Below, piece by piece: positions 2,963 through 4,674 of a DNA stretch of 64,000 bases. The notes beneath the pieces were generated by a model, which did not search any database, was not told where the DNA came from, and worked only from the letters and a program-made list of their open reading frames with translations. The DNA is from Sneathiella sp. P13V-1. GTDB lineage: Bacteria; Pseudomonadota; Alphaproteobacteria; Sneathiellales; Sneathiellaceae. A program made the translations under genes and the position numbers. Within the stretch, counting starts at the first letter, position 1; every line of letters starts with the position of its first letter. The stretch spans positions 1,116,001 through 1,180,000 of the forward strand of contig NZ_WYEU01000001.1 in NCBI RefSeq assembly GCF_015143595.1, read 5' to 3'.

Positions 2963-3129
2963 ATGGGGCCTCGCTTAGCAGGAGTTTATGCAGTTTGAGT
3001 CTAGTATACCCGAAGAAAAGATCAAAATTTTTATGTTTTCTAACCGCCTGTTAACAAAAAATTGTTACTGATTGAACTTCATTCTATTCAGCAAGCTCCC
3101 AGAAGTGGGAAAAGTGATGGAGATACTGG

Positions 3130-4626
3130 ATGCTCATAGGTGATCTGCTTTTGGCCCACGGTCTGGTGAAACCAGAGGATATTGAACTAGCATTTCATCG
3201 CCAGAAGGAAAGTGGCGGCCGTCTTGGTGATAATCTGGTGGCTTTGGGCGTTCTGTCACAGGATCAAGTTGACAAAGTGATCTATGAAGCACCACAAGCC
3301 CCAAAAACAGTGGCGGATACAGGTATTCCCGCTTCCAATCTGTTGCGCTTGCTTTTTAAAGCCATTTACACAAACAGTCTGGAAACCGCTTCTGAATATG
3401 CCGGCTCCCTGAAACTGCCGGTACCAGTGATCAACCGTCTTATTCAGGAATCCGCTGACAGAAAATTTCTGGAAGCCTTAGGATCGGCTGATCAAAGCTC
3501 CTTCTCTGAAAACCGCTATGTGATGACGGAAGCGGGGCGTCGTTTCGCCCTGGAATCCTTGCAGCAGAACCAATATGTGGGCCCTGCTCCGGTATCGCTT
3601 GAACAGTATCAGGAACGTATTCAGCAACAGAAAATCACCAATGAACTGGTTGCTCAGGACAAGATTGATAAGAGTTTTGAAAATCTGGTGATCTCTGATG
3701 AATTTATTCGCCGTCTTGGACCGGGTATCAACGCCGGTAAAAGCATTCTGCTTTATGGCCCTCCGGGTAACGGTAAGACAACGGTTGCGGAGAAAGTGGC
3801 CGATATCTTCGCCAATATCATCTACATCCCTTATTGCTTTGAAGTAGACGGCCAGATCATCAAGGTTTTTGATCCTGCGATCCACAAAGCAGTTCTGCCA
3901 GAAGAGGTGAAGGTGCCAAAATCTGGCCTGCGCCGCGAGGAATTTGATGGCAGGTGGATCCCCTGTGAGCGGCCGGTTGTGATTACAGGTGGTGAATTGA
4001 CGCTGGAAATGCTGGATCTCAGTTTCAATTCCCATGCCAAATATTACGAGGCCCCTCTTCATGTGAAGGCGTCTAATGGTACCTTTATTATTGATGACTT
4101 CGGCCGCCAGTTGGTAAGCCCGGAAGAGCTTTTGAACCGTTGGATCATTCCACTTGAAAGCCGTGTGGACTTCCTGAAACTTCACACAGGTAAAAGCTTC
4201 CAGCTGCCTTTCGATGAGTTGGTGATTTTCTCCACTAACCTGTCGCCGGATGACCTGATGGATCCTGCCTTCCTTCGTCGTATCCCCTACAAATTGGAGA
4301 CAAATGGTCCGAACCGGGATGAGTATTTTGAGATTTTCAAAATTGTTGCAGCGTCTAAAGGTCTTGAGATGACAGAAGAGTTTCTGGATATTGTTCTGGA
4401 CGAGCTGCAGGTTAAAAACAGTTTTGATCTGGCGGCCTATCAGCCGAAATTTATTGTGGAACAAGTACTTGCAGCCTGTAAATTCCGCGGGGAACCTGCC
4501 CATTTCAGTGAAGAGCTGATCCGGGATGCCTTGAAGAACCTTTATACATCAAGTGCTGCAGGTGTCGGGGCGACGAAAGCCAAGGGTGTTGGATCTGGTT
4601 CCAATAAACTGGCAACTGCCGTATAG
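3130..4626 (+). CDS. AAA ATPase with N-terminal MshEN-like repeat
   Basis: A 498-residue cytoplasmic protein. Residues 2-25 and 31-54 form two 24-residue motifs separated by exactly five residues (second motif begins RLGDNLVALG), the arrangement of the MshEN domain that binds cyclic di-GMP in type II secretion and type IV pilus ATPases. The first motif lacks the leading arginine because the protein starts there. A helical linker (about 70-190) leads to an AAA ATPase module with Walker A GPPGNGKT (210-217) and Walker B FIIDDFG (319-325), then a sensor-1-like stretch (VIFSTNL) and an arginine-rich follow-on (AFLRRIPYKLE). The ATPase is not the PilB/GspE fold. The start has GGAG seven bases upstream. 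No pilus or secretion gene is adjacent. Function unknown. Confidence 0.8.
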   Translation: MLIGDLLLAHGLVKPEDIELAFHRQKESGGRLGDNLVALGVLSQDQVDKVIYEAPQAPKTVADTGIPASNLLRLLFKAIYTNSLETASEYAGSLKLPVPVINRLIQESADRKFLEALGSADQSSFSENRYVMTEAGRRFALESLQQNQYVGPAPVSLEQYQERIQQQKITNELVAQDKIDKSFENLVISDEFIRRLGPGINAGKSILLYGPPGNGKTTVAEKVADIFANIIYIPYCFEVDGQIIKVFDPAIHKAVLPEEVKVPKSGLRREEFDGRWIPCERPVVITGGELTLEMLDLSFNSHAKYYEAPLHVKASNGTFIIDDFGRQLVSPEELLNRWIIPLESRVDFLKLHTGKSFQLPFDELVIFSTNLSPDDLMDPAFLRRIPYKLETNGPNRDEYFEIFKIVAASKGLEMTEEFLDIVLDELQVKNSFDLAAYQPKFIVEQVLAACKFRGEPAHFSEELIRDALKNLYTSSAAGVGATKAKGVGSGSNKLATAV

Positions 4627-4644: not shown

Positions 4645-4674
4645 AAAAAAAGCCTCGGACTTCGAGGCTTTTTT
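4645..4674. terminator. Rho-independent terminator, bidirectional
   Basis: GCCTCG pairs with CGAGGC around a five-base loop, preceded by seven A and followed by six T. It serves the AAA ATPase gene on the + strand and the convergent response regulator gene on the - strand. Confidence 0.88.

Follow-up and report, generated by a model that had tools for sequence, protein, structure and literature searches.

An MshEN domain joined to an AAA+ ATPase of a Tad-linked family in Sneathiella: a candidate c-di-GMP-responsive accessory of type IV pili

MshEN is a c-di-GMP sensor domain whose usual home is in pilus and secretion motors. In Sneathiella sp. P13V-1, the open reading frame at 3130-4626 on the forward strand of the window (the whole 64,000-nucleotide stretch of DNA analysed here) places this domain in a different setting: it encodes a protein of 498 amino acids, starting with ATG, in which MshEN is followed by a winged helix and by an AAA+ ATPase core whose MshEN-less relatives are found in the gene clusters of Tad pili. 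We suggest, tentatively and with a probability of roughly 0.38, that the fused protein acts in trans as an accessory ATPase of type IV pili, mainly Tad pili, under the control of its MshEN domain. The features of the gene are listed here with residue numbers of its product and the evidence for each; alignment A1 comprises 17 family members.

3119-3122, +: GGAG, likely ribosome-binding site, 7 nt ahead of the ATG (sequence)
3130-4626, +: open reading frame for MshEN, winged helix and AAA+ ATPase (ORF list; orthologues in Sneathiella)
3133-3204, +: MshEN motif I, residues 2-25, with Leu2 in place of Arg and Gln25 present (NF053729 profile and fusion alignment)
3205-3219, +: spacer of 5 residues, 26-30 (ORF translation)
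3220-3291, +: MshEN motif II, residues 31-54, with RLG present and Ala54 in place of the terminal Gln (NF053729 profile and fusion alignment)
3328-3573, +: winged-helix domain, residues 67-148, MarR/PadR/DtxR-like fold (predicted structure, Z about 11)
3574-3609, +: conserved linker YVGPAPVSLEQY, residues 149-160, containing YVGPAPVSL (alignment A1)
3637-4539, +: AAA+ core, residues 170-470 (Pfam and alignment A1)
3757-3780, +: Walker A GPPGNGKT, residues 210-217, with G210, G213, G215 and K216 invariant (Pfam and alignment A1)
4084-4104, +: Walker B-like FIIDDFG, residues 319-325, with D322, D323 and G325 invariant (alignment A1)
4228-4239, +: sensor-1-like FSTN, residues 367-370, with F367, S368 and N370 invariant (alignment A1)
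4276-4281, +: paired arginines R383-R384, invariant, a candidate arginine finger by putative assignment (alignment A1)
4646-4674, +: intrinsic terminator hairpin 3' of the ATPase gene (fold -20.3 kcal/mol, z -4.6)

The gene and its MshEN domain

The terminator hairpin was found by direct folding and was not picked up by the terminator scan; with this strong terminator behind it and a divergent neighbour upstream, the gene appears to be a unit of its own. Around it lie genes for an MCP, an ACT-domain protein, a LuxR-type response regulator, a GntR/UTRA protein and HtpG, and synteny with other Sneathiella covers the ACT, GntR and HtpG genes. The stretch immediately upstream of the ACT gene (71-2380 in the window) encodes a chemoreceptor with two CHASE3 stretches. 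An orthologue of the ATPase is present in 22 of the 23 other Sneathiella genomes searched, the sole exception being an 86%-complete assembly. In two cases, S. glossodoripedis JCM 23214 (L037, 7884-9493) and G009:C12:131426-132906, the orthologue is broken into two overlapping frames near residues 210-222, by sequencing error or by a real frameshift.

A sequence-only reading of this gene had proposed an MshEN-like repeat at its N-terminus, and the 24-5-24 layout it described is exact: residues 2-25 (LIGDLLLAHGLVKPEDIELAFHRQ), a spacer at 26-30, and residues 31-54 (RLGDNLVALGVLSQDQVDKVIYEA). The profile search on which that proposal was to stand or fall gives a clear hit with a curated model, NCBIfam NF053729 ('c-di-GMP_motif, MshE-related'), which matches residues 3-51 with an E-value of 1.9e-13 and 50 bits against a cut-off of 38 (53.2 when residues 1-165 are scored). 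In a search of the whole Sneathiella sp. P13V-1 genome this protein is the single match, and the E-value and this one match genome-wide rule out a chance resemblance; the model also matches 16/16 aligned homologues. A sequence search of the PDB returned matches including Thermus PilF and V. cholerae MshE, and the AlphaFold model of residues 1-165 reproduces the four-helix bundle of MshE (5HTL; Z 11.2, rmsd 1.6 A over 57 residues, 37% identity) and resembles PilF GSPII-B (Z 10.3). Weak matches of the region to NfrB-type glycosyltransferases were also seen. By profile and predicted fold, the N-terminal residues are a genuine MshEN domain. The segment is under strong purifying selection (pN 0.05-0.10 against pS of about 0.7) and must therefore have some role.

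The domain has the 24-5-24 layout, the four-helix bundle, the glycines and the hydrophobic stacking positions in common with MshE (V. cholerae) and PilF GSPII-B (T. thermophilus). It differs from them at positions 1-2 of motif I (Leu/Ile for Arg/Leu) and at the end of motif II, where Ala takes the place of Gln; no MshEN_C subdomain was recognised, and what follows the domain is a winged helix and an AAA+ core where they have a PilB/GspE motor.

The c-di-GMP site

Position 1 of the two motifs (Leu2 and Arg31) falls within the R/K/L of the extended consensus (PMC11731258). The position 3 glycines, G4 and G33, which are essential, are both present, and the stacking positions keep their hydrophobic nature. 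The terminal Gln, which contacts phosphate and ribose, is found in motif I (Gln25) and replaced by Ala54 in motif II. Among the Sneathiella orthologues, Leu2, Ile3, Ile18, Gln25, Leu32 and Gly33 are invariant and Gly4 nearly so, while position 22 is variable. The asymmetry between the motifs extends throughout the fusion proteins: in a set of 48 (24 from Sneathiella, some of these near-identical, and 24 others) the motif I Gln is found in 48/48 and the motif II terminal Gln in 0/48. The complete copies of family f182, which belongs to another class, likewise have Gln in motif I by eye, and their motif II ends in Lys or Arg in those counted. The loss of contact residues across homologues, which would speak against binding, is thus half realised, as it affects motif II and spares the Gln of motif I.

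That motif I lacks its usual leading Arg, as noted from the sequence, is confirmed by Leu2, and binding may indeed be altered, but the missing Arg is not the likely cause. An in-frame TGA four codons ahead of the ATG leaves no room for a longer N-terminus that would bring the Arg back. The K167L variant of PilF GSPII-B has a KD of 2 nM, and Leu at position 1 is thus compatible with nanomolar binding and can even improve it (PMC11731258); the defect sits in the motif II Gln. A comparable mutation there, Q218E in PilF, lowers the affinity 77-fold, to 460 nM, without abolishing binding (PMC11731258). For MshE, PMC5013675 gives a cost of at most about fivefold for Arg/Gln substitutions and of more than tenfold for substitutions of conserved hydrophobic residues, while glycine substitutions abolished stabilisation by the ligand. 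At the other end, XpsE has lost binding (PMC5013675), and no c-di-GMP is bound by PilF GSPII-A, in which both Gln are missing along with the Arg and the Gly of motif II (PMC12002112). The Sneathiella protein lies between these published binding and non-binding cases, so that weak-to-moderate binding is plausible and a loss possible; judged from its residues, c-di-GMP binding by the fused ATPase, perhaps weakened, is plausible.

Some GspE/PilB proteins have non-binding N-terminal domains that may act as docking contacts. It is possible, though we regard it as doubtful, that MshEN here has likewise given up c-di-GMP binding and is a docking or dimerisation contact, by which the AAA+ ATPase would be attached to the machinery of a type IV filament. 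The uniform loss of the motif II Gln would fit this, as would the variable position 21 of motif I (F/L/H/S/Y/I/V), the motif I turn glycine lost in 10 of 24 Sneathiella sequences, and the precedents of XpsE and GSPII-A; the latter, however, is altered at more sites than the Sneathiella protein, and GSPII-B still binds after a single Gln change. A ligand-free contact is also harder to reconcile with a motif I Gln kept in every fusion protein and with position-3 glycines found in all or nearly all Sneathiella sequences. One genome (G096, 96% complete) bears on the same point in favour of docking: it carries the fusion (L094) and has no GGDEF match at E 1e-10, and its motif II reads PLT where RLG is expected. 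As a single case, this fits a loss of ligand dependence where the ligand is absent. The genome of Sneathiella sp. P13V-1 has at least 9 GGDEF matches.

The ATPase and its Tad context

The sequence-only reading had described the remainder of the protein as a MoxR/AAA-like ATPase and not a PilB/GspE motor. The second part of this stands, as the genome has two T2SSE matches, both at CpaF loci, and neither is the 3130-4626 protein. The first part holds for the AAA+ core (24.3 bits with Pfam AAA, cut-off 21.2), while MoxR proper is not supported: there is no AAA_3 match, the bpMoxR and AAA_5 matches are weak, and hhalign with the MoxR protein RavA spans just 61 columns around the P-loop that the two share. 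Walker A, Walker B, sensor 1 and the candidate arginine finger identify an AAA+ ATPase, with the Walker B carrying DD and not DE.

The only Pfam matches of the ATPase part are generic P-loop models, and Pfam and NCBIfam hold no dedicated model for this conserved family. Archaeal matches (L041/L042) resemble proteasome-activating (PAN-type) AAA proteins and were set aside as generic P-loop similarity; a match to the antiphage protein IteA covers the P-loop region alone, with a score far under the cut-off. The full-length AlphaFold model was discarded, the AAA core being too poor for use (mean pLDDT of the full protein 58). Between Walker A and Walker B lies an insert (3871-3999 in the window, residues 248-290) in which D248, H252, D273, R275, C279, RP and GGEL are strictly conserved; these residues might bind metal or substrate.

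Homology over the full length of winged helix and AAA+ core places the protein in a family of Tad-cluster ATPases, with 44% identity over 87% of the query for Rhizobium copies. AAA family ATPases of tad/flp clusters (Rhizobium WP_260059689.1, Burkholderia WP_258285372.1; about 30-46% identity) have the same winged helix, GPAPVSL linker, AAA+ core and invariant residues. They are sited within the tad cluster and have no MshEN, whereas the Sneathiella protein has MshEN and is encoded outside, the tad clusters of its genome being on other contigs. Relatives turned up by tblastn against plasmids come from rhizobia, Burkholderia, Paraburkholderia, Salipiger, Pseudorhodobacter and Photobacterium, and every context inspected was in or beside a tad/flp cluster.

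The plasmid search and two genome surveys together allow the contexts of copies with and without MshEN to be compared. MshEN-less copies are tad-linked in 29 of 32 contexts from alpha-, beta- and gammaproteobacteria (the exceptions are L099, L111 and L160; in one of the 29, L054, the match starts at residue 126, so that the MshEN region is outside it). The tad-linked members come from Rhizobium, Sinorhizobium/Ensifer, Salipiger, Burkholderia, Paraburkholderia, Photobacterium, the alphaproteobacterial family f23 and 15 more phylum-wide contexts, and those outside the alphaproteobacteria lie mostly between cpaA and cpaB. MshEN-bearing copies are tad-linked in 0 of 29 contexts, within about 9 kb or less on short contigs. 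The difference has a Fisher p of 3e-14, or 1.5e-6 when counted per family (0/15 against 14/17). A tree built from the winged-helix and AAA region accounts for the MshEN label with just 2 changes, which suggests that the fusion had a single origin, or nearly so, and afterwards lasted across about 15 families.

Several further arrangements were seen. In a non-alphaproteobacterial family the ATPase occurs in tandem pairs (L141, L142, in G412 and G439), and one G439 copy has lost most of MshEN. One genome, G310, has a fused (L093) and an MshEN-less copy (L099), neither adjoining tad genes, and a member from an Acidobacteriaceae MAG (L039) groups with an Acetobacteraceae copy, through transfer or a binning error.

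A conserved partner in the neighbourhoods of homologues, which the sequence-only reading had proposed to look for, did not emerge: within about 9 kb no neighbour of the fused gene is conserved across families, and several reported neighbour clusters were antisense ORFs. As fused copies are never tad-adjacent and share no neighbour across families, it is homology and co-occurrence that tie the fused version to Tad. Among 386 alphaproteobacterial genomes surveyed the ATPase is present in 28, and CpaF is found in 28/28 of these carriers against 167/386 overall. With genomes matched for size (at least 2.3 Mb, GGDEF present) the figures are 27/27 carriers against 103/176, with p = 2e-6; this value is not corrected for phylogeny and is optimistic, since species are not independent. 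Outside the alphaproteobacteria the link of the fused gene to CpaF weakens: in f182, four genomes have the fused gene, and CpaF is present in two and absent from two (G418, 99% complete, and G560, 86%); every f182 carrier encodes several further ATPases of type IV filaments or T2SS.

These two carriers without CpaF, the physical separation of fused copies from tad genes and the want of a conserved partner would also be expected if the fused ATPase had left Tad pili and become a c-di-GMP- or partner-gated AAA+ remodelling factor elsewhere, its co-occurrence with CpaF reflecting lifestyle and ancestry only. We consider this quite unlikely in view of the complete co-occurrence in the alphaproteobacteria, which persists after size matching, and of the two tad clusters of Sneathiella sp. 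P13V-1, whose CpaFs are the only T2SSE-family motors in the genome. It is very unlikely that the protein is a transcription regulator, with a DNA-binding winged helix and an AAA+ ring and MshEN controlling transcription (e.g. of tad genes) by c-di-GMP: the MarR/PadR/DtxR-like fold would suit it, but winged helices in AAA+ proteins are often structural or protein-contact modules, the relatives without MshEN have structural tad genes around them, and Pfam shows no sigma-54 activator core.

Proposed function and significance

The family belongs to Tad-pilus clusters, which makes these pili the most likely context for the MshEN fusion; gene context ties the MshEN-less relatives to Tad directly, and for the fused branch we infer the tie. 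In the role proposed here, at type IV and mainly Tad pili, the protein would be a stand-alone, probably ring-forming AAA+ ATPase whose family assists type IVc (Tad/Flp) pili. Members within tad clusters would work without a recognisable sensor; in the unlinked Sneathiella lineage, c-di-GMP would act on the N-terminal MshEN, whose four-helix bundle would switch or dock the ATPase. With only one of its two phosphate-binding glutamines left, the domain would probably bind c-di-GMP less tightly than a classical MshEN does. The AAA+ ring may then use ATP hydrolysis to remodel a Tad component, e.g. CpaF, CpaE, CpaB or a pilin-processing step, a target that would come from one or other of the genome's two separate tad clusters. 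The direction of this effect, like the ATPase activity, the hexamer, the c-di-GMP binding and the Tad target themselves, is something we infer. A wider version of the proposal, which we regard as rather unlikely, is that this widespread unnamed AAA+ ATPase is an overlooked Tad accessory whose MshEN-fused branch is a direct c-di-GMP receptor in trans, its one-glutamine site being tuned to high c-di-GMP.

MshEN fusions to many domains are already known: PMC5013675 describes MshEN joined to glycosyltransferase, REC, HD-GYP, CheA, cyclase and kinase, that is, as a non-motor add-on. It is an add-on module here as well, with the difference that its output is an AAA+ ATPase whose family is linked to Tad, a pairing absent from the main text of that paper (PMC5013675). 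Neither the pairing of MshEN with this AAA+ family nor the association of the family with Tad clusters was found in the literature searched, and these two are what appears to be new. The same search found no papers on a tad-associated AAA protein; a Sinorhizobium T4cP paper does not contain the term AAA.

In Caulobacter, c-di-GMP controls Tad pilus dynamics, and two effector proteins have been proposed, which are unnamed (PMC6581867). A recent description of the Tad machine names two cytoplasmic ATPases, CpaF and CpaE, and makes no mention of a comparable AAA protein (PMC13170226). With MshEN joined to an ATPase whose sensor-less relatives sit in Tad clusters, the fused protein could be the link that has been missing between c-di-GMP and Tad pili. 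It is a case of MshEN recruited by a non-motor ATPase, and if the ATPase does act on Tad pili, it would add one more ATPase to a well-studied machine and provide a concrete candidate for its control by c-di-GMP.
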